Part shown: piece by piece, positions 50,859 to 63,536 of the stretch | Layout of the letters: each line of letters starts with the position of its first letter | Position numbering within the stretch: position 1 is the stretch's first letter | DNA from: Afipia sp. OHSU_II-C1 | Lineage (GTDB): Bacteria > Pseudomonadota > Alphaproteobacteria > Rhizobiales > Xanthobacteraceae | Length of the DNA stretch: 64,000 nt | Direction of reading: 5' to 3' | Assembly (NCBI RefSeq): GCF_000497575.1 | Contig: NZ_APJI01000005.1 | Span: 124,001 to 188,000, forward strand | Notes under the pieces: model-generated | Seen by the model: only the letters and a program-made list of their open reading frames with translations | What the model was told of the DNA's origin: nothing | Database searches by the model: none | Translations under genes and position numbers: made by a program

Positions 50859-52280
50859 ATGAGAACCGTGGCCGCCCGACTGTCTTGGTTGATGACCAGG
50901 CGAGGGGCTGTTCCGCTGCTGATCATCTGCCTCTGGGCGGTAGCGGCGTTTCCCAATCTCTCTGTGCGCTCATTCATCTGGGAGGAAGGGACGAACGCCG
51001 AGATCGCGCGGGACATTCTGTCCAATGGCAACCTGCTTCAGCCGGAGGTTTATGGACTTCGCTGGAACGAGAAGCCGTCGCTGCTGCCGTGGTTGATCGC
51101 CGGAGTTGCGAAGGTCACGGGCGAGGTCAACGAATTTTCCGCGCGGTTGCCTGCGATGATCGCGGTGGTGCTGACGGCGCTGCTGGTTCAGTCGCTGACG
51201 CGGCGCTACGCCAGCCTGAATGCATCGCTGCTCGCAGCGTTACTGTTCATGTTTTCCCCGATGCTGTTGCAGAAGCTCGCGATCGCCGAGCCGGATACGT
51301 TGGTGACGCTGTTTTCGTTTGCCGCCTTTGTTGTCTGGTGGAACGGCGTTGAGGCCGGCCGCGTCGGCTGGTGGCGCTGGATCGGATGCGGGTTACTGCT
51401 CGCGATCCTCGCCATGGCGAAAGGACCCCAGCCGGTGGGCTACTTTGTACTCGGCGTTTCGGCCTATCTCGCCGTAACGAACCGATGGCGCGATATTCCC
51501 GGGCTCCTGGTCAGTTTGTTGATCCCGGCCACCGCAACAGTTGCATGGGCAGCCGCAGTTTACCGGCCGGGCGACGAGGCGACCTGGATCAGCTACGCGC
51601 GATTAGGCTCAGCTCCGAACATCGGCAACTACATCGTCCAGAACGCGCGCGTTTTCTTCAGCCTTACTGTAGAGCTGATGCCAGCCATCCTGCTAGCGCC
51701 GTTCCTTTGGTACGCAAAAAACGACGGCAGGGCTGTTCCACATGTGGCGCTGCCGCTCGCGCTCTATGCTGCCTTGTGTACGATCGTTGTGGTGTTGTGG
51801 CCGGGTTCGAACAGCCGCTACGCCATGCCGTGCGTTCCAGCGATTGCAGTGCTTGCCGGGTTGGCTTGGGATGTAACGACAGAAGCGAAATACGGATGGT
51901 TGCGGCGTATAGCCGTGGCAATCGTCTCTGTGCTCATCGTCTTTCAGATGATGTTCACGAATGCGGTTGTCCCTCTATTCGCTGACAAATTTGGCGGATC
52001 GCGGATCGCGGGGCAGGGCATTGAGCGAGCCATCCGGGCCAATCCCGCTCCCGTGTTTTGCACCAGTCTTGCGACCAATCAGCTTTTTTATATGAGGGCG
52101 GGGCCGGTCCGTTGCGTTGATCCGGCCGGCCTTGGTTCGATTCTCGCGCCCGCATGGCTGATTATTCCGCGCGAACATGCACCGCTTTTGGCACAATTGA
52201 ATTCTGGTCTCGGGGCGCGGTTGGCGGTGGAAACTGACACGGGACCCCACCTGTCGCTTATGCGGCTCGACAGGCGTTGA
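50859..52280 (+). CDS. ArnT-like GT39 membrane glycosyltransferase
   Basis: 473 residues, about eleven membrane helices. The first loop IWEEGTNAEIARDILSNGN has the E-x(5)-E/A-E pattern of ArnT, and RWNEKPSLLPWLIAGVAKVT matches ArnT's E-K-P-P/S-L-x-W block. ArnT moves 4-amino-arabinose from undecaprenyl-phosphate to lipid A; related enzymes use galacturonic acid or mannose. The ATG at 50859 is chosen, directly after the preceding stop; the longer frame would overlap that gene by 100 bases. The last of three GT39 genes, closing the glycan locus. Confidence 0.82.
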   Translation: MRTVAARLSWLMTRRGAVPLLIICLWAVAAFPNLSVRSFIWEEGTNAEIARDILSNGNLLQPEVYGLRWNEKPSLLPWLIAGVAKVTGEVNEFSARLPAMIAVVLTALLVQSLTRRYASLNASLLAALLFMFSPMLLQKLAIAEPDTLVTLFSFAAFVVWWNGVEAGRVGWWRWIGCGLLLAILAMAKGPQPVGYFVLGVSAYLAVTNRWRDIPGLLVSLLIPATATVAWAAAVYRPGDEATWISYARLGSAPNIGNYIVQNARVFFSLTVELMPAILLAPFLWYAKNDGRAVPHVALPLALYAALCTIVVVLWPGSNSRYAMPCVPAIAVLAGLAWDVTTEAKYGWLRRIAVAIVSVLIVFQMMFTNAVVPLFADKFGGSRIAGQGIERAIRANPAPVFCTSLATNQLFYMRAGPVRCVDPAGLGSILAPAWLIIPREHAPLLAQLNSGLGARLAVETDTGPHLSLMRLDRR

Positions 52281-52307
52281 GCGGCCGTCCAACCAGTCGT
52301 CTACCAT

Positions 52308-52324
52308 AGTTCAAAAATTGAATT
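52308..52324. promoter_or_regulatory. Imperfect copy of the AGTTC-N7-GAACT operator
   Basis: AGTTC-AAAAATT-GAATT has the same 5-7-5 layout as the operators of the catabolic promoters, with one mismatch in the right arm (GAATT for GAACT). It lies 28 bases after the ArnT-like stop and 128 bases upstream of the perfect site at 52458. It may be a second weak binding site. Confidence 0.35.
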
Positions 52325-52451
52325 ATTGGCCAATCTGGCTCGCGAGCCCGCGGTCGGATGCTTTTGCGTCCGCGCAGTAAATGCCAAAGTTCCCCTAGAT
52401 TAGCGGGTTTTCCAAGACGAGGGGCGCCTTCCTCATCGCGCGCCATGGCGC

Positions 52452-52481
52452 TTGACTAGTTCTAAAAAAGAACTGTAACTT
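52452..52481 (+). promoter_or_regulatory. Promoter with operator for the LivK-type gene
   Basis: TTGACT (52452-52457) is a -35 element; TAACTT (52476-52481) is a plausible -10, 18 bases on. The spacer is filled by a perfect palindrome AGTTCT-AAAAA-AGAACT (52458-52474). The same arrangement recurs at 56242 and 59893. The gene starts about 100 bases downstream at 52580. A regulator bound here would block RNA polymerase. Confidence 0.65.
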
Positions 52482-52579
52482 CGCGATCAATAAAAGAAGC
52501 CGAAAACGGCAGCAATTGAAACGAGCCCGCCCGGCTTGAGTTGCGGGGCACGGGACATGTTCACAGGGGAGGAGAGACG

Positions 52580-53779
52580 ATGATCAAGGGTTTGAAGCTC
52601 GCGTCAGCGTTGGTGGTTGCGCTGTCCGGTTCGGCCTTCGCCGCCGATACACCCGGTGTTACCGCAACTGAAGTGAAGGTCGGAGGCGTGTTCCCGTTCA
52701 GCGGGCCCGCGTCATCTATCGGTCTCGTGGGCAGGGGCGTTCTCGCTTACGTCCAATCGGTCAATGATCGCGGCGGTATCAACGGCCGCAAGATCAATTA
52801 CATCGCCTATGACGATGCCTACAGCCCGCCGAAAGCGGTCGAGCATGTCCGCAAACTGGTCGAGAGCGATGAAGTTGCCTTCATGTTCGGCCAGCTTGGC
52901 ACGCCCGGTAATACGGCAACGGCGAAGTATCTGACGAGCAAGAAAGTCCCGGCGCTCGGCATTGTGAGCGGCTCGAACAAATTCACGAACGTGAAGGATT
53001 TCCCGATCACGACGACCAGTCTCGTCAGCTTCGATACCGAAGGAAAAATTTACGCAAAGTATTTGAACAAAACGCTTCCCGGCAAGAAATACGCGATCCT
53101 TTATCAGAACGACGATCTCGGGAAAGACTACGTCAATGCCTTCAAAGAGCTGATGAAGGGCGAGTTCGACAAGCGTGTCGTCACCGCGGCCTATGAGATC
53201 GCGGACCCGACGGTCGATTCCCAAATCGTGAATCTGAAGAGTTCGGGCGCGGACGCCTTGCTGGTTGCAGGAACGCCGAAATTTGCCGCCCAGGCGATCC
53301 GCAAGGCATCGGAGATTGGGTGGAAACCGACGTTGTTGCTGAACTATCCGTCGGGTTCGGTCGGAGCGACCTTGAAACCTGCGGGCTTGGACAAGTCCAT
53401 CGGCGTGATTGTCGGAACCATGACGAAGGATCCGACTGATACAAAGTGGAACAACGACAAGGGTATGAAGGACTATCGGGCCTTCATCGACAAATACATG
53501 CCTGGCGTCGATATCTCCGATACCAACTACATCTTCGGGTACACCCAGGGGATGATTCTCGAGCAGATCATCAAGCAGTGTGGTGACGATCTGTCTCGCG
53601 AGAACATTCTCAAGCAGGCAAAGAACCTGAAGGACATTGCTCTTCCAACGGTGCTGCCGGGCGTTCTTGTCAACACGAGCGAGAGCGTGAACCAGGATTT
53701 CACCCAGATGCGCCTGCAGCGCTGGACGGGTGAGAGCTGGGATCAATTCAGCGACGTGCTGGACGCGAAGTCCGAATAG
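52580..53779 (+). CDS. Branched-chain amino acid-type ABC substrate-binding protein
   Basis: Periplasmic binding protein of the LivK family. 399 residues with a Sec signal peptide (LKLASALVVALSGSAFA, cleavage after Ala21). TEVKVGGVFPFSGPASSIG, YVQSVNDRGGINGRKINYIA and DDAYSPPKAVEHVRKLVE are the standard first-domain blocks. In Bradyrhizobium-like genomes many such proteins bind aromatic or other carboxylic acids. No permease or ATPase genes lie near, so it must share a transporter. The start has a GGGGAGGAG site 9 bases upstream and follows an operator-bearing promoter. Confidence 0.9.
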   Translation: MIKGLKLASALVVALSGSAFAADTPGVTATEVKVGGVFPFSGPASSIGLVGRGVLAYVQSVNDRGGINGRKINYIAYDDAYSPPKAVEHVRKLVESDEVAFMFGQLGTPGNTATAKYLTSKKVPALGIVSGSNKFTNVKDFPITTTSLVSFDTEGKIYAKYLNKTLPGKKYAILYQNDDLGKDYVNAFKELMKGEFDKRVVTAAYEIADPTVDSQIVNLKSSGADALLVAGTPKFAAQAIRKASEIGWKPTLLLNYPSGSVGATLKPAGLDKSIGVIVGTMTKDPTDTKWNNDKGMKDYRAFIDKYMPGVDISDTNYIFGYTQGMILEQIIKQCGDDLSRENILKQAKNLKDIALPTVLPGVLVNTSESVNQDFTQMRLQRWTGESWDQFSDVLDAKSE

Positions 53780-53795
53780 CCCGTGAGATGAATCG

Positions 53796-53829
53796 AGGCC
53801 GGCACTCTTGCGAGATGCCGGCCTTTTTT
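53796..53829 (+). terminator. Terminator after the LivK-type gene
   Basis: AGGCCGGCA (53796-53804) pairs with TGCCGGCCT (53816-53824), with an inner CTC/GAG pair and a single bulged A, followed by TTTTTT. Lies 17 bases after the stop, so the acyl-CoA ligase that follows is probably transcribed separately or by readthrough. Confidence 0.9.
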
Positions 53830-53872
53830 GATTTGTTGTCCAGTTTTCTGGAATTCTAGAGAGGAGAGGGCC

Positions 53873-55504
53873 GTGAAGGGCTTAATGCAAAATCAGCCGC
53901 TGCTTCTGTCGTCATTGTTGCGGTATGCGGACCGGTTCCATGCGGGCACGGAAATCGTGTCGCGCACTGTCGAAGGCCCAATTCATCGTTATACCTATCG
54001 CGACGCTGCACGACGCACCCGGCAACTGGCCAGCGCGTTGCATCGCTGGGGTGTCAGGTTCAGCGACCGGGTCGCGACCATGGCCTGGAATAACTATCGC
54101 CATTTCGAGCTGGAGCATGGTGTAACCGGTATGGGCGCCATCTGGCATGCGATCAACCCGCGATTGATCCCGGCGCAGATCTCCTACATTGCCAACCACG
54201 CAGAAGATAAGGTTCTGTTTTTCGAGAGTTCATTCCTGCCGCTGGTTGAAAAGCTCGCACCCGACCTGAAGACCGTCCGGTTGTTCGTCTTGATGGTCGA
54301 CAGCGCTTCAATGCCGTCTGCGACGACGATACCCAACCTGCAATGCTACGAAGATTTCATCAAAACCGGCGACGAAGATTTTGTCTGGCCCGAGTTTGAC
54401 GAGCTATCGGCGTCTTCGTTGTTCTACACTTCAGGAACCACGGGCAACCCCAAGGGCGTGCTCTACTCCCATCGGTCCGATTTGTTGCACGTTCTGACGG
54501 AAAGCGGAGCGCATAGCTTCGGCTTTACCGCGCTGGACACGGTTTTGCCAATGACGCCGATGTTTCACGCCAACGGCGCCTGGGGGTTTACCTACGCCCC
54601 GCCGATGGTGGGCGCCAAGCTCGTCCTGCCGGGACCGAAACTCGATGCCGCAAGCATCGCCGAATTGATCGAGGCCGAGGGGGTAACGCTAACCGCCGGT
54701 GTGCCGACGCTCTACACAAAACTTCTGCAGCATTTCACGGAGCAGGGCCGTGGCGTCGGAACGTTGAAGCGGATCGCGGTTGCGGGATCTGCGCCGGCAC
54801 CAAGCATGATGGAAGCCTTCGAACGCCTCGGTGTTTCGGTCAATCACATCTGGGGAATGACGGAAACGAGCCCCACCGGCACCACGCCACAGCCTTCACG
54901 GAAAGTCGCAAAATCGTCGGCGCAGGAGCAGCTTCACCGCAAGACCATGCAGGGGCAGCCGCTCTTTGGTGTCGATGTGAAGATCGCGGACGAAAATGGA
55001 AACGAGATGCCCCGCGACGGCAAATCCAGCGGCCGCCTGATGGTTCGCGGTCCCTGGGTTCTCAGCGGCTACTACCGCGAAGAAAAGCCTTTGCTGGAAG
55101 ACGGGTGGTTCAACACGGGCGATCTCGCCGTGATGGATGATGACAACTACATCCAGCTTACCGATCGAGCCAAGGACGTCATCAAGTCCGGTGGTGAGTG
55201 GATCAGCTCGATCGATGTCGAGAACCTGGCGATCGGTTGCCCCGGCGTGGCCGAGGCGGCTGTCATCGGCATTCCCCATCCACAATGGGAGGAGCGTCCA
55301 CTGCTCGTTGTGGTGCCATCTGCATCGGAACCGGCGACCGCAAAGTCGATCATCGCATTTCTGGAAGGGAAGATCGCCAAGTGGTGGATGCCGGATGATG
55401 TTATTTTCATCGACGCTCTGACCTACGGCGCGACCGGCAAGGTGCAGAAGATGGAGTTGCGCCAGCGCTTCGCTGGGCACTACACCGCGCAGAAAAGCGC
55501 GTAA
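53873..55504 (+). CDS. Acyl-CoA ligase (DmdB/medium-chain type)
   Basis: 543 residues. The N-terminus KGLMQNQPLLLSSLLRYADR matches the group annotated as 3-(methylthio)propionyl-CoA ligase or fatty-acyl-CoA ligase. YTSGTTGNPKGVLYSHRS (P-loop), HIWGMTETSPTGT, FNTGDLAVMDDDNY with TDRAKDVIKSGGEWISS, and ATGKVQKMELR (catalytic Lys) are intact. The GTG start at 53873 has a GAGGAGAG site upstream; the ATG 12 bases on is the alternative, and earlier in-frame codons lie before the ribosome site. A palindrome TCCAG-TTTT-CTGGA (53839-53852) lies just before it. Substrate not proven. Confidence 0.88.
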   Translation: MKGLMQNQPLLLSSLLRYADRFHAGTEIVSRTVEGPIHRYTYRDAARRTRQLASALHRWGVRFSDRVATMAWNNYRHFELEHGVTGMGAIWHAINPRLIPAQISYIANHAEDKVLFFESSFLPLVEKLAPDLKTVRLFVLMVDSASMPSATTIPNLQCYEDFIKTGDEDFVWPEFDELSASSLFYTSGTTGNPKGVLYSHRSDLLHVLTESGAHSFGFTALDTVLPMTPMFHANGAWGFTYAPPMVGAKLVLPGPKLDAASIAELIEAEGVTLTAGVPTLYTKLLQHFTEQGRGVGTLKRIAVAGSAPAPSMMEAFERLGVSVNHIWGMTETSPTGTTPQPSRKVAKSSAQEQLHRKTMQGQPLFGVDVKIADENGNEMPRDGKSSGRLMVRGPWVLSGYYREEKPLLEDGWFNTGDLAVMDDDNYIQLTDRAKDVIKSGGEWISSIDVENLAIGCPGVAEAAVIGIPHPQWEERPLLVVVPSASEPATAKSIIAFLEGKIAKWWMPDDVIFIDALTYGATGKVQKMELRQRFAGHYTAQKSA

Positions 55505-55508
55505 CGGA

Positions 55509-55536
55509 AAAGGCGCCAGAAAATCTGGCGCCTTTG
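55509..55536. terminator. Hairpin between ligase and hxlR-type gene
   Basis: AAAGGCGCCAGA (55509-55520) pairs perfectly with TCTGGCGCCTTT (55524-55535) around AAA. It lies between convergent genes and can end both transcripts, though the T run outside the stem is short. Confidence 0.75.
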
Positions 55537-55572
55537 TCAATAGATCGAACTGATCGTCTGGAACGTTGCTGT

Positions 55573-56097
55573 TTAAGCCGCCCGAGCCTTTGCTCGCGGG
55601 GTTTTGGCCTTGGCCACCCTCGCAGGCTTCGGCGGGATAGTCTTCGGGCGTGCACCAGGACCGGGATGGACGTGAACTTCCTTCGCCAGCAATGGCTCGC
55701 CGCATTCAGAGCAGATCATGACCGGGTTGAACTGGTGGCCGCATTTCTGATGTTCGTGCAGCAGCGGACGGCCGCGCTCATCGACCATATGGATATCGCC
55801 CCAGTGAACGATCGCCATCATGATCGGGTAAAGGTCGAGGCCCTTCTGGGTGAGAATGTATTCGTGCCGCTTGGGCGATTCCTGATAGGCGACTCGCCGC
55901 AGGACGCCGAGACGGACCAGCTTCTTGAGGCGCTCGGCCAGAAGATGCCGGGTGATCCCGAGAGCGGACTGAAATGCCTCAAACCGGCGGGTCCGCAGGA
56001 AGCATTCGCGCAGGATCAGGAGGCTCCATCGGTCGCCGATTACGCCGATGGTACGGGCCATGGAACAGGGTTCTTCTTCTAGTTCATCCCATCTCAT
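55573..56097 (-). CDS. HxlR family winged-helix regulator with zinc-ribbon-like tail
   Basis: 174 residues. Residues about 10-105 are the HxlR domain: CSMARTIGVIGDRWSLLILRE, RFEAFQSALGITRHLLAERL (recognition helix) and YILTQKGLDLYPIMMAIVHW. A C-terminal part has HQKCGHQFNPVMICSECGEP, a Cys/His cluster that could bind zinc, then a Lys/Pro/Ala-rich basic tail. HxlR proteins respond to aldehydes, thiols or aromatic compounds and often repress neighbouring genes. Its divergent spacer holds one of the three AGTTC-N7-GAACT operators, so it is the best candidate regulator for them. Confidence 0.88.
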   Translation of the reverse strand: MRWDELEEEPCSMARTIGVIGDRWSLLILRECFLRTRRFEAFQSALGITRHLLAERLKKLVRLGVLRRVAYQESPKRHEYILTQKGLDLYPIMMAIVHWGDIHMVDERGRPLLHEHQKCGHQFNPVMICSECGEPLLAKEVHVHPGPGARPKTIPPKPARVAKAKTPRAKARAA

Positions 56098-56166
56098 CGT
56101 GGTCTCCGGTTCGTGCGCAAGGCTGATCGTCGGTTCATGTTATATAGCCTGCATACGTACCATTCT

Positions 56167-56199
56167 AAATAGGCACTGAGTTGGACAAAAGTCCTATTT
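56167..56199. repeat. Nested palindromes upstream of the hxlR-type gene
   Basis: AAATAGG (56167-56173) is the inverse of CCTATTT (56193-56199), and inside them GGAC-AAAA-GTCC (56183-56194) forms a second palindrome. The block lies in the divergent hxlR/isomerase spacer, closer to hxlR, and may be a binding site for its own control. Confidence 0.35.
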
Positions 56200-56241
56200 T
56201 GGGCTGGGTGGCGTAAAATCTGCCCGGAAGGCCAGATCGAA

Positions 56242-56270
56242 TTGACAGTTCAATTTTAGAACTCTATGAA
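56242..56270 (+). promoter_or_regulatory. Promoter with operator for the isomerase-CoA-transferase unit
   Basis: TTGACA (56242-56247), a consensus -35, and TATGAA (56265-56270), a -10, are 17 bases apart. The spacer carries the perfect palindrome AGTTC-AATTTTA-GAACT (56247-56263), the same arms and spacing as at 52458 and 59899 although the centre differs. It lies about 80 bases before the isomerase-like gene. Confidence 0.7.
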
Positions 56271-56349
56271 TGACCCACGCTCCGGGCAAGGGCGGTAAAA
56301 TATCAAAAGACACGTCGGACGACGTGTGACGGAGGAGGAGGAGAAGCGC

Positions 56350-56988
56350 GTGACCAGTCCCTTGAAGGTCGAGTTTCAGTTCGATTTCGGTAGCCCGAAT
56401 GCCTATCTGGCAGAATATGCGATTCCGGGCATCGAAAAGCGTACCGGCGTCAAGTTTGACTATGTCCCGGTGCTGCTTGGTGGCATCTACAAGGCGACCA
56501 ATAACATGTCGCCGTCCGACTCGCTGCGTGGCATCAAGAACAAGCCGGAGTTCAATGCGCTCGAGACCGAGCGTTTTCTCCGCAAGTACGGCATCACCAA
56601 ATTCAAGCAGAACCCGTTCTTCCCGGTCAACACGCTGACGCTGATGCGCGTCGGCACGGCGGCCCAGTTTGAAAACATGTTCGAGCCCTATTTCCGGGCC
56701 GCCTATCATCACATGTGGGAAGAGCCGAAGAAGATGGACGATCCGGAGGTGTTCCGGAATGCATTCCTGTCGTCGGGTATCGACATCGACCGGCTTTATG
56801 CGCGTGCGCAGCAGGATGATGTCAAGAAGCGCCTGATCGAGGTCACCACCGATGCGGTGAATCGCGGCGCATTCGGCTCGCCGACCTTCTTCGTCGGCAA
56901 GGAAATGTTCTTCGGCAAGGATCAGGTGCGCGACGTGGAAGAGTCCATTGTCGAACAGCTCGGCGCGGCGAAGGCCAAGTCCGCCTGA
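56350..56988 (+). CDS. DsbA-like 2-hydroxychromene-2-carboxylate isomerase family protein
   Basis: 212 residues, thioredoxin fold of the GST-kappa/HCCA isomerase group. VEFQFDFGSPNAYLAEYAIP has the Ser-Pro in place of the C-x-x-C of DsbA, as expected of isomerases; RGAFGSPTFFVGKEMFFGKD is the cis-Pro block that ends the domain. Such enzymes isomerise ring-cleavage products (naphthalene pathway) or act on other thiol conjugates. The GTG start at 56350 is preceded by an exceptionally strong GGAGGAGGAGGAG; the frame's earlier codon at 56326 lies before that site. Followed 82 bases later by a CoA-transferase gene. Confidence 0.82.
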   Translation: MTSPLKVEFQFDFGSPNAYLAEYAIPGIEKRTGVKFDYVPVLLGGIYKATNNMSPSDSLRGIKNKPEFNALETERFLRKYGITKFKQNPFFPVNTLTLMRVGTAAQFENMFEPYFRAAYHHMWEEPKKMDDPEVFRNAFLSSGIDIDRLYARAQQDDVKKRLIEVTTDAVNRGAFGSPTFFVGKEMFFGKDQVRDVEESIVEQLGAAKAKSA

Positions 56989-57070
56989 TCGCGGCTTAAG
57001 GTTCTCGCCATCACGCCTTTGCTCGGGTAAGGCCGACAGGCCGTCCCGCCAGGAAATCAGGAAGAAGCAG

Positions 57071-58270
57071 ATGTCCGGTCCCCTTCATGGTGTGCGCGTT
57101 CTGGATCTGACCGCGGTGGTGTCGGGACCGTATGCGACGATGTTCCTGGCGGACCAGGGCGCGGATGTGCTGAAGGTCGAGCCAACTACCGGAGATGGCA
57201 CTCGCCGGAGCCGGAATCTGATCGATGCAGCTGGCGAATTCTCCGCGCTGTTCGTGTCGTGCAACCGCGGCAAGCGCTCGCTTTCGATCGATATAAAAAG
57301 CAACGCCGGCCGCGAAGTGCTGGCCAAGCTCGCTGCGCAGGCGGACGTGTTGGTGCAGAACTTCCGTCCGGGCACGATGGAGCGCCTCGGGCTCGGTCAT
57401 GAGGAATTGCGCAAGAAGTACCCGCGGCTGATTTACGTCTCGATTAGCGGGGTGGGCGACAGCGGGCCTTACGTCAAAAAGCGCGTCTATGATCCGATCG
57501 TCCAGGCGCTGTCTGGTTTTGCCGACATCCAGTCGCAGCCGGGGACCAACCGGCCGCAGATGATCCGCACCATCGTCTGCGACAAGACGACGTCGGTGTT
57601 CACGGCGCAGGCGGTGTCGTCGGCTCTGTACGCACGCGAGAAGACGGGCAAGGGCGACCACATCCAGGTGGCGATGCTGGACGCCATGATCTCGTATTTG
57701 TGGCCGGAAGGCATGATGCAATACACCGTTGTGGGCAAGGAGACGGCGGTCGGCGATCCGAACGATCGGCCTGATCTCGTATTCCAGACGCTCGACGGTT
57801 ACATTACCGCCGGCACCATCTCGGATTCCGAGTGGCTGGGCTTCTGCAACGCGACCGGCGACCCAGCACTGGCCAAGGACGAGCGTTTCGCCACGCCGAG
57901 CGCGCGGTTCATCAACGCCACGGCCCGTATCAACACCATGCAGACGTATATCGGCAAATACACCACGGCTGAATGGCTGAAGCGGCTGGACGAGAACGAT
58001 GTGCCGTGTTCGCCGATCCTGCGGCGCGGCGAAATCATCGACAATGAGCAGGTTGTGGCGCGGGGTCTGATCGAGGAATTCGAGCAGCCGACAGTTGGCC
58101 GTGTGCGGCAGCCAAAGCCCGCGGCGATCTTCGAAGTCAACAAGGCTGCCATAGGAGGTCCGGCGCCGCGGGTCGGCGAGCACTCCCGCGCGGTGCTGCG
58201 CGACCTCGGCTACAGCGATAGCGCCATCGACGCCATGATCGCAAACAAGGCTGTTAGGGCGGCGGGGTAA
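57071..58270 (+). CDS. Class III CoA-transferase (CaiB/BaiF family)
   Basis: Moves CoA between carboxylic acids. 399 residues. GVRVLDLTAVVSGPYATMFLA and DQGADVLKVEP are the N-terminal signature, NRGKRSLSIDIKSNAGREVL and QNFRPGTMERLGLG follow, and DHIQVAMLDAMISYLW is the later conserved block; the catalytic Asp is expected in the GTSG/D-P/D region (VYDPIVQALSGFADIQSQ). The ATG at 57071 has an AGGAAGAAG site. It shares the operator-bearing promoter with the isomerase gene and ends at a bidirectional terminator. Confidence 0.9.
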   Translation: MSGPLHGVRVLDLTAVVSGPYATMFLADQGADVLKVEPTTGDGTRRSRNLIDAAGEFSALFVSCNRGKRSLSIDIKSNAGREVLAKLAAQADVLVQNFRPGTMERLGLGHEELRKKYPRLIYVSISGVGDSGPYVKKRVYDPIVQALSGFADIQSQPGTNRPQMIRTIVCDKTTSVFTAQAVSSALYAREKTGKGDHIQVAMLDAMISYLWPEGMMQYTVVGKETAVGDPNDRPDLVFQTLDGYITAGTISDSEWLGFCNATGDPALAKDERFATPSARFINATARINTMQTYIGKYTTAEWLKRLDENDVPCSPILRRGEIIDNEQVVARGLIEEFEQPTVGRVRQPKPAAIFEVNKAAIGGPAPRVGEHSRAVLRDLGYSDSAIDAMIANKAVRAAG

Positions 58271-58297
58271 AAAACCGCGATGCTCACCGCATCGCGG
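58269..58297 (-). terminator. Terminator of the GST-SDR unit
   Basis: CCGCGATGC (58275-58283) pairs perfectly with GCATCGCGG (58289-58297), five-base loop. Read on the minus strand the stem is followed by TTTTTT, so it ends the minus-strand transcript; it also lies directly after the CoA-transferase stop. Confidence 0.85.
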
Positions 58298-58314
58298 GTA
58301 CTTTCATCGGAAAA

Positions 58315-58995
58315 TCAAGCTTGCTTTTTGACAGGAGCACTGGGCGGCGTCGGCGTCATATTCGCTGCCATTCCGCTGCGATATCCCGGCCGCGCCTGGA
58401 TGCGTTCGAGATAGGGGTGGGCGTTGTCGCAAATGCCGACACCGTAAGCGATCGCCCAATCGAGACATGTCGTGAGTAGAATGTCCGCGCTGGTAAACTG
58501 ATCGCCCATCAAGAACGTTCGCCCATCGGCGAGAGCCACTTCGACGTGCCGCAACTGCTCGCGAAAATACTCGCCGGCTTTGGCGACGACATCGGGGGCA
58601 ATGCCGTAGATCGGCCCAAGCGCGTCAGCGCTGTGGCGGCGCATCACGTAGAGGCTTGTTGAATCAAGCTCGGTCACAATGAAAAAGCACCATTCCAGCC
58701 ACTTGGCATACTGCGCTTTGTCTTCTGGAATGAGCGATCTGCCTGGCCCGCCGTAGGTGCGCGACAGATACGCGACAATGGCGGCGCTCTCACCGATTGC
58801 GAAATCGCCGTCCTGCAGCAACGGCACTTTTTGGCGCGGGTTGAGCTTGGTGTATTCGGCGGTCTTGGTCTCGCCGGTGCGAGGGCCGATGGCGCGGGTT
58901 TCGTAGGTCAGGCCAAGTTCGGCCATCGCCCAGTGCGGGCGGACCGTACGGCTGGTTCCGACGCCCCACAGGGTGAGGTGCGGTGCGGTCGCCAT
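58315..58995 (-). CDS. Glutathione S-transferase family protein
   Basis: 226 residues. N-terminal thioredoxin domain LTLWGVGTSRTVRPHWAMAE with the Ser/Arg active-site region, then NPRQKVPLLQDGDFAIGESA (cis-Pro and the E-S pair that binds glutathione) and AAIVAYLSRTYG. The C-terminal all-helical domain has FLMGDQFTSADILLTTCLDW (N-capping box, S-x-A-D). The ATG at 58995 lies one base after the stop of the SDR gene upstream, so the genes are co-transcribed and the longer upstream frame is not used. May handle reactive intermediates of the catabolic route. Confidence 0.88.
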   Translation of the reverse strand: MATAPHLTLWGVGTSRTVRPHWAMAELGLTYETRAIGPRTGETKTAEYTKLNPRQKVPLLQDGDFAIGESAAIVAYLSRTYGGPGRSLIPEDKAQYAKWLEWCFFIVTELDSTSLYVMRRHSADALGPIYGIAPDVVAKAGEYFREQLRHVEVALADGRTFLMGDQFTSADILLTTCLDWAIAYGVGICDNAHPYLERIQARPGYRSGMAANMTPTPPSAPVKKQA

Positions 58996-58996
58996 G

Positions 58997-59755
58997 TCAC
59001 CAGGTCTCCACAGAGGGACGCAGATCGAGTTCGTGAGTCCAACCGTCGCGCTTCTGGTGATGTGTGAACCAGTACGCGTCTGCAATCGAGTCTGTCTTGG
59101 TCAGGCTGTCGGCCGGGATGTCGCTAGCTTCAATACCCTTAGCGGCCTTCATGCGCAGATGAATCGCCTCGCTGTCCACGGCCGCGTCGATCAGCAGATG
59201 GACAACATGAATATTCTTGGGGCCCAGTTCGCGCGCCATCGCTTGGGCCACGGCACGGAGGCCGAACTTGGCAGATGAGAACGCGGCAAAACCTTTCCCG
59301 CCGCGCACACTCGCTGTTGCGCCGGTGAACAGGATGGTGCCCCGGCCGCGCGGGAGCATGTTCTTGGCGGCTTCGCGGCCGACAAGAAATCCGCCATAGC
59401 AGGCGAGTTCCCATGCCTTGAAGAACAGCTTCTCGGTGGTCTCCAGCAGCGGCTTGTTGACGTTGGACCCCGCGTTGTAGAGGCAAACCTCGATCGGCCC
59501 GATTTCCTTTTCGATGCGCGCAAACATGGCCTGCACATCGGCTTCCTGGCGGGCATCGACGCTGATGGCGTGGACTTCACATCCTTCCGCCTTCAATTCA
59601 TCGACAAGCGATTGAGATTTCGCTGCGTCGCGGCGGGCCACGCATACCTTGTATCCACCCTTGGCGAATCGGCGGGCGACCGCCGCACCGATAGCGTCAC
59701 CCGCGCCGACCAGCAAAACCACGCCGTTGCCCTGAGCCAAGATCGTTTCTCCCAT
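58997..59755 (-). CDS. Tyr-less short-chain dehydrogenase (SDR_c10-like)
   Basis: 252 residues with a Rossmann SDR fold. The glycine motif is VGAGDAIGAAVARRF, not the canonical T-G-x3-G-x-G, and NAGSNVNK is the N-A-G block. At the active site LFTGATASVRGG is followed by FAAFSSAKFGLR: Phe159 replaces the catalytic Tyr and Lys163 is kept. This is the pattern of the SDR_c10 group. Catalysis of a normal alcohol oxidation is doubtful. It is first of a two-gene unit with the GST and is divergent from the ligase operon; its paralogue lies at 61599. Confidence 0.85.
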   Translation of the reverse strand: MGETILAQGNGVVLLVGAGDAIGAAVARRFAKGGYKVCVARRDAAKSQSLVDELKAEGCEVHAISVDARQEADVQAMFARIEKEIGPIEVCLYNAGSNVNKPLLETTEKLFFKAWELACYGGFLVGREAAKNMLPRGRGTILFTGATASVRGGKGFAAFSSAKFGLRAVAQAMARELGPKNIHVVHLLIDAAVDSEAIHLRMKAAKGIEASDIPADSLTKTDSIADAYWFTHHQKRDGWTHELDLRPSVETW

Positions 59756-59892
59756 TAAGTTCTTATTTGATACTTTCTTTCATAGCGGCCATACCGATCC
59801 TTGTAAACGAATATCGTCGCAATCTGCACCGACCTGTGGCCTATGGGTGGGCTGAGGCCGGAACCAAGATCTATCGCGCCGCATCATTCAGA

Positions 59893-59922
59893 TTGACTAG
59901 TTCTAAAAAAGAACGCTAACGT
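59893..59922 (+). promoter_or_regulatory. Promoter with operator for the ligase-SDR-ACAD operon
   Basis: TTGACT (59893-59898) and a weak -10 TAACGT (59917-59922) are 18 bases apart; the spacer holds AGTTC-TAAAAAA-GAAC-G (59899-59915), identical to the site at 52458 except for the last base. Because the -10 overlaps a GTG at 59921, translation must start further downstream, at the TTG of 59978. Confidence 0.65.
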
Positions 59923-59977
59923 GCGTCCACGTCAAGACCGCCGCCGAAGCGGTCGAAGAATATTGCCGGAGGATAAA

Positions 59978-61534
59978 TTGGCTAGCGCTCAACCCGAATT
60001 CGATGTTTCCGATATTCTGGATGGATTGCCAGAGCGGCTACACGACACGATGGCACGCGCCGTCGCGGAAACCCCGGATCATCCGGCCCTGATCGAGGAT
60101 GGCCGAGCCTGGTCTTATCGGCAACTGGCCAACAATGTTGACCAAACCGCTGCATCACTGACCGCATTGGGCATTCGTCCGGGCGACCGGATGATGATTG
60201 TCAGCGAGAATAGCATCGCGCTGGTGGCGCTTCTGCTGGCTGCCAGCAAGATCAACGCCTGGGCCATTGTTGTGAATCCGCGGCTATCGCCACGCGAGTT
60301 GGATCAGATTCGCGATCACAGCGGCTCGCGCCGCATGTTCTTCACGGCTGATGTCTCCGGCGAGGCTGCGAGCCATGCGCAGCGCGTGGGCACGGAAATC
60401 GCGAAGGTCGGTCCGCTCGACAATATCGGCGTCAGTGCGTTGAACGAGACGACGACGCCGGAGCCTGTGCAAACCAGTCCGGCGAAGCAGGTGGCTGTCC
60501 TGATCTATACGTCCGGGACCACAGGGACGCCAAAAGGCGTCATGCTGACTCACGAGAATCTGCTGTTTAGCGCCAGGACCACGGCGCTGCTCAGGCGGAT
60601 GGACAATCGGGACAAGCTCTACGTCGTTCTTCCCATCTCTCATATCGTCGGTGTTTCGCTGACTTTGATGACGCTGATGACAGGCGGCACCGTCCGGCTG
60701 GTCAGCAAGTACGATCCCGCAGCGCTTGCAAAAGCCATCGCGGAAGAGGGGATCACCATCCTCAATGGTGTGCCGGCAACCTATCAGCGCCTGCTTGAGT
60801 ACAAGACGCTTTCCGGCGTCCCGAAACTGAACAAGGGTTCGCTGAGATATATTGGCGTTGCTGGCGCGCCGCTCGATCCAGATTTGAAGTCCCGTGTCGA
60901 AGCAGAGCTTGGTCTGCCTCTGCTGAATGGATACGGCATTACCGAATGCGCGCCGGGGATTTCTGGCGTTCGGATCGAAGCGCCACGCCCTGACAGTGCG
61001 GTCGGCCAGATTGTGCCGGGCGTGGAAGGGCGCATCATCGATCGCGACGGCAAGCTGGCAGCGAACGGAGCTGTGGGCGAACTTCATGTTCGCGGAAAGA
61101 ACGTGATGCTCGGATACTACCGCGCGCCTGATTTGACAGAGAAGGTCATCGATCGCGATGGATGGTTCAATACAGGCGATCTAGCGTACCTTGACGGCGA
61201 CTGCATGTTCATCGTCGGGCGCACCAAGGAAATGATCATTCGTTCGGGATTCAACGTCTATCCCGCCGAAGTGGAAGCCGTGCTGAGTTCGCATGACGCA
61301 GTCGTGCAATCCGCTGTCGTCGGACGTAGTGCCGACGGCAACGAAGAAGTGGTGGCGTTCGTTCAGCTGCTGAAGGGCTCTAACGTGACGCCCTCCGAAC
61401 TGATGGCGTTCGCCGGCAAACAGCTCACATCTTACAAGCGTCCATCGCAGATCATCGTGCTCGATGCATTGCCGGCGACATCGACGGGCAAGATTCTCAA
61501 ACACAAGTTGGCTGAATCGTTGCGAGGCACCTGA
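59978..61534 (+). CDS. Acyl-CoA ligase (AMP-dependent synthetase)
   Basis: 518 residues from a TTG start that has GGAGGA eight bases upstream; the frame's GTG at 59921 lies within the promoter. YTSGTTGTPKGVMLTHEN, NGYGITECAPGISG, FNTGDLAYLDGDCMFIVG with RTKEMIIRSGFNVYPAEVE and TSTGKILKHKL (Lys) are all present. The best matches are the dicarboxylate/long-chain and aromatic acid ligases of this superfamily, but the substrate is open. It leads an operon with an SDR and two acyl-CoA dehydrogenases, which suggests that the acid is activated and then beta-oxidised. Confidence 0.9.
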   Translation: MASAQPEFDVSDILDGLPERLHDTMARAVAETPDHPALIEDGRAWSYRQLANNVDQTAASLTALGIRPGDRMMIVSENSIALVALLLAASKINAWAIVVNPRLSPRELDQIRDHSGSRRMFFTADVSGEAASHAQRVGTEIAKVGPLDNIGVSALNETTTPEPVQTSPAKQVAVLIYTSGTTGTPKGVMLTHENLLFSARTTALLRRMDNRDKLYVVLPISHIVGVSLTLMTLMTGGTVRLVSKYDPAALAKAIAEEGITILNGVPATYQRLLEYKTLSGVPKLNKGSLRYIGVAGAPLDPDLKSRVEAELGLPLLNGYGITECAPGISGVRIEAPRPDSAVGQIVPGVEGRIIDRDGKLAANGAVGELHVRGKNVMLGYYRAPDLTEKVIDRDGWFNTGDLAYLDGDCMFIVGRTKEMIIRSGFNVYPAEVEAVLSSHDAVVQSAVVGRSADGNEEVVAFVQLLKGSNVTPSELMAFAGKQLTSYKRPSQIIVLDALPATSTGKILKHKLAESLRGT

Positions 61535-61598
61535 CGTCTCGTTGAGACGCCGCCTTCGCTGATGAACTTTGAAAATTCCTCTTTCTAGGAGAAAGATC

Positions 61599-62342
61599 TT
61601 GCAGAAACGTAACGCGACCGTGGCGGTGATCGGCGCCGGAGATTTCATCGGCGGCGAAATCGCCAAGAAATTCGCAGCCGAAGGTTTCACGGTCTTTGTG
61701 GGGCGCCGTCAGGGCGAGAAACTCGAGCCTCTGATGAAAGAGATCAGAGATGCAGGCGGAACGGTATTTGGCCGTTCGCTCGATGCGCGCAAGGAAGAGG
61801 AGATGATTTCCTTCATTTCCGACGCCGACAAGCATGCTCCGCTGGAAGTCTGCATTTTCAACATCGGCGCCAACGTCAATTTCCCGATCCTCGAAACCAC
61901 CGAACGGGTCTTCCGCAAGGTTTGGGAAATGGCCTGCTACTCCGGCTTCCTTGCGGGACGTGAAGCAGCCCGGGTGATGCTGCCGCGCGGCAAAGGTGCG
62001 ATCTTCTTCACCGGTGCGACCGCGAGCTTGCGCGGCGGTTCGGGGTTTGCGGCTTTCGCCAGCGCCAAGTTCGGTCTTCGCGCCGTCGCGCAGGCGATCG
62101 CGCGGGAGCTTGGACCGAAGAACATCCACGTTTCTCACCTCATCATCGATTCCAGCGTCGATACGGAGTGGGTGCGGCAACTGATCGCCAATCGCGAGGG
62201 CAAAGAGGCGATCGAGAATCTCGATCCGAACCGCCTGATGCGCCCGGCTGCGGTCGCAGAGACTTATTGGCAGCTTTATCAGCAGCCGCGCGATGCCTGG
62301 ACGTTCGAGACCGAAATCCGCCCGTTCGGCGAGAAGTGGTAA
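61599..62342 (+). CDS. Tyr-less short-chain dehydrogenase (SDR_c10-like), paralogue
   Basis: 247 residues from a TTG with AGGAG eight bases upstream; another TTG at 61569 lies before that site. The sequence VAVIGAGDFIGGEIAKKFA is the altered glycine loop and ATASLRGGSGFAAFASAKFG carries Phe153 and Lys157 where Tyr-x3-Lys is expected. It is closely related to the SDR at 58997 (shared blocks GFAAF-SAKFGLRAVAQA and RELGPKNIHV) but on the other strand and in another operon. Function unknown; the two may form a heteromer or be successive duplicates. Confidence 0.85.
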   Translation: MQKRNATVAVIGAGDFIGGEIAKKFAAEGFTVFVGRRQGEKLEPLMKEIRDAGGTVFGRSLDARKEEEMISFISDADKHAPLEVCIFNIGANVNFPILETTERVFRKVWEMACYSGFLAGREAARVMLPRGKGAIFFTGATASLRGGSGFAAFASAKFGLRAVAQAIARELGPKNIHVSHLIIDSSVDTEWVRQLIANREGKEAIENLDPNRLMRPAAVAETYWQLYQQPRDAWTFETEIRPFGEKW

Positions 62343-62354
62343 CGGAGCCTTCCG

Positions 62355-63536
62355 ATGGAGCTGAAGCTTTCCAGTGAAGATGCGGCGTTTCGGGATGAGG
62401 TAAGGGCCTTCATCGCGGACAACTATCCGCAGGAAATGCGCGTGCCGAATCCGGAAACGGATCTGACCAAGGAGCAGTCGATGCTCTGGCACAAGATCCT
62501 GCACAAGAAGGGATGGATCGCACCGCTGTGGCCGAAGGAATACGGCGGGCCCGGCTGGTCGATCACACAGCGCTTTATCTGGGAGCAGGAAACCACGCGC
62601 GCCGGAACGCTGCCGCCTCTGGCGTTCAGCGTCACGATGGTTGGGCCTGTTATCTATACGTACGGCAACGACGCGCAAAAGAAGAAGTTTTTGCCGCGGA
62701 TTCTGTCGGGCGAGGACTGGTGGTGCCAAGGTTACTCGGAGCCTGGCTCAGGATCGGATCTTGCGTCGGTTCGCACCAAGGCAGTGCGTGAGGGCGACCA
62801 TTACATCGTCAATGGCCACAAGACCTGGACCACGCTGGCCCAGCACGCAGACTGGATTTTCTGTCTGGTGCGTACGGACCCGACAGCGAAGGCGCAGTCG
62901 GGCATTTCCTTCCTGCTCATCGATATGAAGAGTCCGGGTGTAACGGTTCGGCCGATTATCACGATCGACGGGTCGCATGAAGTCAACGATGTCTTCCTGG
63001 AGAACGTCCGCGTTCCCGCCGAAAATCTGATCGGTGAGGAGAACAAGGGTTGGACTTACGCGAAATTCCTGCTTGGCAACGAGCGGACCAGCATGGCGGG
63101 CATCGGGCGCTCGACACGCTATCTGAACAAGCTGAAGAAGATCGTGAAGGCCGAGATTGCCGAGGACGATCCTGCTTTCAATGAGTTCACCAAGGACATT
63201 GCCCGCGTCGAACTCGATGTGCTGGCGCTGGAAGCCACCGAGCTTCGCGTTGTTGCGCAGATGGCGCGGGGGATCGATCCGGGACCTGCGGCCTCGCTGT
63301 TCAAGATCCGGGGCACCGAAATCTTCCAGCGCATCACCGATCTGACGCACCGGGCCATTGGCAACTACGGTCTGGCGCTACGCGAGCATCCGGCCAGCGC
63401 AAACACCTTCATGCCGGGGCCGGCCGATGGTCACACCGCGCCAGAGAAGTATCTGAACGCGCGCAAGCTCAGCATTTACGGCGGATCGAACGAGATCCAG
63501 CGCAACATCATCGCGAAAGCGGTGCTCGGTCTTTAA
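62355..63536 (+). CDS. Acyl-CoA dehydrogenase, large-subunit type (PimC-like)
   Basis: FAD enzyme that makes the alpha-beta double bond in acyl-CoA. 393 residues. KKGWIAPLWPKEYGGPGWS, the GYSEPGSGSDLASVRTKAVR (FAD-binding, YSEPGxGSD) and YIVNGHKTWTT blocks, then NERTSMAGIGRSTRYLNKL, and the end YGGSNEIQRNIIAKAVLGL are typical. Length and sequence resemble PimC of the pimeloyl-CoA pathway. Such proteins pair with a second, smaller acyl-CoA dehydrogenase, and one follows after 21 bases. Confidence 0.9.
   Translation: MELKLSSEDAAFRDEVRAFIADNYPQEMRVPNPETDLTKEQSMLWHKILHKKGWIAPLWPKEYGGPGWSITQRFIWEQETTRAGTLPPLAFSVTMVGPVIYTYGNDAQKKKFLPRILSGEDWWCQGYSEPGSGSDLASVRTKAVREGDHYIVNGHKTWTTLAQHADWIFCLVRTDPTAKAQSGISFLLIDMKSPGVTVRPIITIDGSHEVNDVFLENVRVPAENLIGEENKGWTYAKFLLGNERTSMAGIGRSTRYLNKLKKIVKAEIAEDDPAFNEFTKDIARVELDVLALEATELRVVAQMARGIDPGPAASLFKIRGTEIFQRITDLTHRAIGNYGLALREHPASANTFMPGPADGHTAPEKYLNARKLSIYGGSNEIQRNIIAKAVLGL

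Follow-up and report, generated by a model that had tools for sequence, protein, structure and literature searches.

A 5-7-5 palindrome, AGTTC-N7-GAACT, recurs at promoters of Afipia sp. OHSU_II-C1 and is most probably the operator of an HxlR-family protein (gene at 55573-56097), which would act as an autoregulated repressor of genes for uptake and for coenzyme A (CoA)-dependent catabolism; we put the probability of this reading at about 0.82. The window, i.e., the whole stretch of 64,000 nucleotides analysed here, corresponds to C5:124001-188000 of the 5.08 Mb genome (C numbers denote contigs and L numbers fetched loci). The data are best explained by a putative regulon of several LivK genes, CoA ligases, a CoA-transferase, an isomerase, short-chain dehydrogenases (SDRs) and acyl-CoA dehydrogenases, which in part of the genus would also include an ATP-binding cassette (ABC) operon beside pim genes. 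A preliminary description of the window had proposed one operator for one regulon; the genome scan and the promoters of relatives support this proposal, to which HxlR is now added as the regulator. The hxlR gene lies between livK/ligase 1 and the isomerase gene, divergent from the operator at 56247, and falls inside the interval treated in that description, where it was not named. The putative regulatory elements, together with hxlR itself, are:

52308..52324, + strand: AGTTC-AAAAATT-GAATT, an auxiliary operator 150 bp upstream of that of livK and lacking TTGAC
52452..52457, + strand: livK -35 box TTGACT
52458..52474, + strand: livK operator AGTTCTAAAAAAGAACT, in the promoter spacer
52475-52480, + strand: weak -10-like GTAACT of livK, 17 bp spacer
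55573..56097, - strand: HxlR-family regulator (PF01638, 79.1 bits, cut-off 20.8), proposed to act as a repressor at these sites and on its own gene
56161..56177, - strand: second, imperfect operator AGTGCCTATTTAGAATG, covering the hxlR -10-like TAGAAT
56242..56247, + strand: -35 box TTGACA of the isomerase/CoA-transferase unit
56247..56263, + strand: primary operator AGTTCAATTTTAGAACT, between the divergent hxlR and isomerase genes
56265-56270, + strand: -10-like TATGAA of the isomerase/CoA-transferase unit, 17 bp spacer
59758..59774, - strand: operator-like site AGTATCAAATAAGAACT, immediately before the start of SDR a
59893..59898, + strand: -35 box TTGACT of the ligase 2 operon
59899..59915, + strand: ligase 2 operon operator AGTTCTAAAAAAGAACG, one mismatch

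Three promoters had been described as sharing the palindrome. It is exact at 52458-52474 and 56247-56263, where the centres consist entirely of A/T; the third copy (59899-59915) is imperfect, with one mismatch to AGTTC-N7-GAACT. The palindromes were correctly placed in the spacer right after TTGAC-A/T, as the -35 boxes TTGACT, TTGACA and TTGACT directly precede the sites at 52458, 56247 and 59899, respectively; at 56247 the last A of TTGACA doubles as the first A of the palindrome arm. The -10 boxes of these promoters are predicted. The units said to lie downstream (a LivK-type gene, the isomerase/CoA-transferase pair and the ligase-SDR-dehydrogenase operon) were recovered by open reading frames (ORFs) and domain matches. 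Beyond the three sites already described, the window contains those at 52308 (one mismatch), 59758 (two mismatches) and the degenerate one at 56161-56177. In relatives, the 59758 site is commonly found in the related form AGTACCAAATAAGAACT, and the form of the ligase 2 operator recurs as well (the other strand reads CGTTCTTTTTTAGAACT).

The palindromes are genuine and occur far more often than chance predicts. The window has four sites in which the centre is entirely A/T and the arms contain no more than one mismatch, compared to 0.0026 expected under a first-order Markov model of the window, and six exact AGTTC-W7-GAACT sites are present in the genome, compared to 0.006 expected when this model is scaled to 5.08 Mb; the reversed control in the genome-wide comparison gave 0. 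If the A/T centre is not required, there are eight exact sites in the genome (2.8 expected), and, with up to two mismatches, 33 matches in the window (mean of 19.8 in shuffles). Because of this figure of eight against 2.8, the two exact sites with G/C-containing centres (C1:19262, C15:152056) may be chance occurrences and were set aside as such. TTGACTAGTTC alone was dropped as a search key, its control being more frequent. An alternative origin of the palindromes, as A/T-rich elements of promoters or terminators or by chance, would fit the composition of their centres and two terminator-like matches at 59911-59935 (minus strand); terminator-like matches overall are near the shuffle mean (10 vs 8.2). 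The site counts speak against this explanation, and the conservation of the arms in relatives while the centres vary, together with the absence of the palindrome from 199 genomes of the family without a close HxlR, contradicts it, so that its probability is practically negligible.

The scan of the genome returned 14 places, among them the six exact A/T-centred sites. At C10:201333, an exact site lies between a second hxlR gene (71% identical) and a LivK-SDR unit. Further sites precede a LivK gene (C14:106854) and a TctC gene (C15:28758). On C6, one site (C6:554938), which has counterparts in relatives, falls within iclR itself, at the 3' end of its coding sequence, and another (C6:555187) lies between this gene and a Liv ABC operon; on its opposite side iclR is flanked by a pim-type operon, whose PimA (1083.7 bits, cut-off 705.6) and PimC (726.1 bits, cut-off 623.85) both score above the equivalog cut-offs. 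Two-mismatch sites at C7:131320 and C14:120160 each precede a gene with a flavin-reductase domain. Such a scan had been suggested as a check of the shared operator, and its outcome is favourable: A/T-centred copies are few, and those followed up adjoin uptake and CoA-catabolic genes. The regulon as proposed here excludes C12:68921, C13:3022 and C13:346798. The last of these (L049:9299-9315) reads AGTTCATTTAACGAACA, is near an IclR-like gene and a different gene set and is probably the site of another regulator.

A scan with the two HxlR proteins yielded 77 loci of relatives, mostly Afipia and Bradyrhizobium. In 75 of them, HxlR has the palindrome (at most one mismatch) no more than 400 bp upstream, in 65 cases in its exact form; the two exceptions are L135, whose one-mismatch site is at -407, and L144, where HxlR is matched in part and no site was found. 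In a footprint alignment of the window with 19 chosen loci, operator 1 with its TTGACA is near-invariant amid diverged sequence, and a second near-invariant island, AGTRCCTATYTAGAATG, covers the hxlR -10-like TAGAAT. A second hxlR operator with up to two mismatches is recognizable in 66/77 loci. Among sites with at most one mismatch and at least six A/T in the centre, TTGAC abuts 69/75 of those upstream of HxlR (the exceptions are two second sites and four primary sites), 51/71 on the ligase side (nearly all of the 20 exceptions being the SDR-start site by position and sequence) and 37/53 on the LivK side, where the 16 exceptions are upstream auxiliary sites of the 52308 kind. Comparison with the orthologous promoters, also proposed previously as a check, thus bears out the conservation of the site and, for the most part, of the abutting -35 box. 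Relatives (at least 70% identity) of SDR b are encoded in 68/77 and of the isomerase in 60/77 loci; L092, L115 and L127 have neither. Note that in two Bradyrhizobium loci (L082:6539-8341, L110:6625-8445) a PRK12582-type acyl-CoA synthetase replaces ligase 1 between HxlR and LivK.

Sites are also present at targets not linked to hxlR. For LivK relatives of at least 57% identity, the site was present in 27/27 fetched loci (14 genomes; one gene truncated), and it was present in none of the 3 loci fetched out of 13 with LivK of 50% identity or less. The site is also kept at LivK and/or SDR loci of the C10 type that have no HxlR next to them (L223, L224, L228, L232, L237). A flavin reductase is a target in L220, and its relative is divergent from HxlR in L127.

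Both hxlR operators are clear in 61 of the 77 loci, and 58 of these have them at a spacing of 74-78 or 85-88 bp. The overall standard deviation of the spacing (SD, 14.4) exceeds that of the distance from operator 2 to the ATG (6.1), owing to bimodality and to outliers (66, 112, 181). No such spacing clusters were seen among 23 LivK site pairs 110-250 bp apart. Helical phasing of the hxlR operators is suggestive only, and few evolutionary events are behind the spacing pattern. A tentative extension, for which we claim less than even odds, would be a multi-locus HxlR regulon in the Bradyrhizobium/Afipia group, where scattered binding proteins share the Liv permease beside the pim genes under one sensor and the near-constant, roughly helix-phased hxlR operators form a looped or cooperative autoregulatory switch.

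The palindrome co-occurs with HxlR. Among 291 genomes of the family, the exact palindrome occurs in 72 of the 92 with a close HxlR and in 0 of the 199 without (including four whose HxlR matches are all distant, E 1e-44 to 5.5e-41), while the reversed control occurs in one genome. In the own genus, the corresponding figures are 16/16 and 0/7. In the order sample (219 genomes), the exact palindrome was found in 11 genomes; a close HxlR (E below 1e-80) is encoded in eight, seven of which have the palindrome. This distribution argues against an unlinked other transcription factor as the binder, with hxlR merely one of its targets, an explanation that the scatter of the sites over the genome might suggest but that we regard as very unlikely: both close HxlR paralogues have the site, and distant orthologues in another family (L162, L163) are each preceded by two AGTTY-N7-RAACT sites of the same geometry, 36-65 bp before the start codon. 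A specific candidate, the IclR of the C6 locus, was rejected. It was found in 33/34 tested genomes, including 19/20 without HxlR, and is an unlikely binder because all 20 HxlR-less genomes lack the exact palindrome, yet 19 have IclR. (The 14 HxlR-positive genomes were chosen from palindrome-positive ones, and only the negatives are informative in this comparison.)

An autoregulated repressor is proposed because the sites lie directly after the -35 boxes and on the regulator's own -10. According to this proposal, an HxlR dimer would read AGTTC and GAACT in adjacent major grooves and, bound in the spacer after the -35, would block RNA polymerase at the livK, isomerase/CoA-transferase and ligase-SDR-dehydrogenase units, with the weaker second site on the hxlR -10 providing autoregulation. 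An inducer, perhaps a substrate-derived CoA thioester or an electrophile, would release HxlR, so that the genes for uptake and CoA-dependent breakdown at several chromosomal places may be switched on together. The preliminary description had suggested that the regulon may respond to an aromatic compound or an acyl-CoA.

A number of observations weigh against the repressor reading. The B. subtilis HxlR is a positive regulator according to PMC9069715, and a consensus scan of 52000-60200 found no sigma-70-like promoter; both would suit an HxlR that binds the sites mainly as an activator, or as a repressor at some promoters and an activator at others, as would the sites at 52308 and on C6, C14 and C15, which do not abut a TTGAC -35 box. 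This alternative, which we consider improbable, is opposed by the conserved place directly after the -35, where a bound dimer would cover the promoter, and by the spacer, whose length is normal wherever a -10 is readable, so that distortion of the DNA would not be needed. HxlR binding, as well as repression and autoregulation, is deduced from sequence, which speaks for the unlinked factor mentioned above. In part, the co-occurrence reflects the site at the hxlR locus itself, and the genomes share ancestry and are not independent. Furthermore, 20/92 family genomes with HxlR lack the palindrome (in its exact form), and in the order sample 4/211 genomes without a close HxlR carry it, which is not above the level of the reversed control (8/219 genomes). 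Neither the C14 LivK (threshold 1e-120) nor the C6 IclR (1e-80) has a match in the seven HxlR-less genomes of the genus; the genus therefore offers no regulator-less target for comparison. Finally, the site pair of the iclR-Liv locus was found in only 9/15 genomes of the own genus, and in other genera of the family 0/30 iclR loci examined (of 33; 11 of the 30 HxlR-positive) had a site with at most one mismatch. Because of this difference, the iclR-Liv operon appears to be a lineage-specific target of the proposed HxlR repressor.

The structure model of HxlR was the best of five (mean predicted local distance difference test score 66; 41-49 for the others), with confidence only for residues ~21-90 (winged helix). 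Foldseek matched it to 4a5n, 7bzg and 5hs7 with a probability of 1.00, and the matches include PA1374, PA1607, HypR, HxlR, YodB and QsrR. C11 is present in 78 of 79 HxlR sequences, and H114, H116, C119, C129 and C132 of the C-terminus are invariant (79/79); the latter residues resemble a zinc ribbon and lie outside the HxlR Pfam match. The redox subgroup YodB/CatR has an N-terminal sensing cysteine (Cys6/Cys7 in PMC6798810). Because C11 and C119/C129/C132 are conserved, HxlR is possibly a thiol- or metal-dependent sensor. A CoA thioester or an aromatic/dicarboxylic acid is an equally possible inducer; acids are favoured by the pim neighbourhood and an electrophile by the glutathione enzymes. 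The genome encodes 16 HxlR-family proteins; two of the genes are near an exact site, one (L066) near a one-mismatch site and 13 near none. At L066:1393-1409 (C16), upstream of the HxlR-family gene of that locus, AGTTCGATATTGCAACT represents a variant of the 5-7-5 layout.

With its PF01638 winged helix and its fold matches, the regulator resembles the HxlR/DUF24 (MarR-like) proteins YodB, CatR, QsrR, HypR and HxlR. As in the case of YodB, which is reported to prefer TACT[7]AGTA (PMC8063818), 7 bp separate the half-sites of the palindrome that HxlR would bind here. CatR and YodB act negatively on catDE, as stated in PMC6212828. In contrast to the known HxlR/DUF24 systems, the half-site is AGTTC, several unlinked promoters are involved, the genes belong to acid/CoA catabolism rather than to quinone stress, and the protein has the C-terminal extension with the invariant C119, C129 and C132. 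The C6 locus, with PimA ligase and PimC dehydrogenase genes beside iclR and the Liv ABC operon, is similar to the pim and Liv ABC cluster of Rhodopseudomonas palustris, where RPA3723 and RPA3724, the binding proteins encoded next to it, take fatty and dicarboxylic acids as ligands (PMC3223731); the C6 locus differs in its AGTTC site pair, which is absent, at up to one mismatch, from the 30 iclR loci of other genera of the family. A genistein-induced HxlR-type gene of B. japonicum (PMC9069715) and HxlR among iron-modulated families (PMC9368920) are mentioned in passages that give no operator. Our searches of the open-access literature, judged by titles or the beginnings of abstracts, turned up no operator or regulon for an HxlR of this group; the regulon proposed here is well supported, as an example of a type of system already known. 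The proposed operator offers, for common soil bacteria, a handle on uncharacterised genes of uptake and CoA catabolism, the regulon would tie stand-alone binding proteins to a candidate permease, and substrate discovery becomes testable, as either the substrate or an intermediate is expected to act as the HxlR inducer.

Apart from hxlR, the genes at the window locus are:

52581..53779, + strand: LivK-type substrate-binding protein (Peripla_BP_6, 172 bits); ORF called from 52541, ATG with ribosome-binding site at 52581
53828..55504, + strand: acyl-CoA ligase 1 (AMP-binding)
56350..56988, + strand: DsbA-fold / 2-hydroxychromene-2-carboxylate isomerase (kappa glutathione S-transferase) like protein; ORF called from 56326
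57071..58270, + strand: family III CoA-transferase (PF02515, 361 bits); ORF called from 56948
58315..58995, - strand: glutathione S-transferase; the called ORF extends to 59085, but the ATG at 58995 is the more likely start
58997..59755, - strand: short-chain dehydrogenase a
59978..61534, + strand: acyl-CoA ligase 2; TTG at 59978 preceded by a ribosome-binding site, called ORF begins at 59921
61569..62342, + strand: short-chain dehydrogenase b, a frequent HxlR neighbour in relatives
62355..63536, + strand: PimC-like acyl-CoA dehydrogenase

Past the end of the window, the ligase 2 operon continues with a thiolase and another acyl-CoA dehydrogenase. The acyl-CoA dehydrogenase within the window scores 482.6 bits, below the PimC equivalog cut-off of 623.85, and the best NCBIfam match of ligase 1, 3-(methylthio)propionyl-CoA ligase, is likewise below its cut-off. 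Neither NCBIfam nor the comparison of the glutathione S-transferase, the isomerase and LivK with solved structures named a substrate. Isoprene-type gene sets combine a CoA-transferase III, an SDR and glutathione enzymes, as the window does; unlike those sets, the ten window proteins included no monooxygenase in the domain scan. SDR b is very close (E 1e-117) to the solved structure 3h7a, which is named only 'short chain dehydrogenase', and its frequent linkage to HxlR could point to its function.

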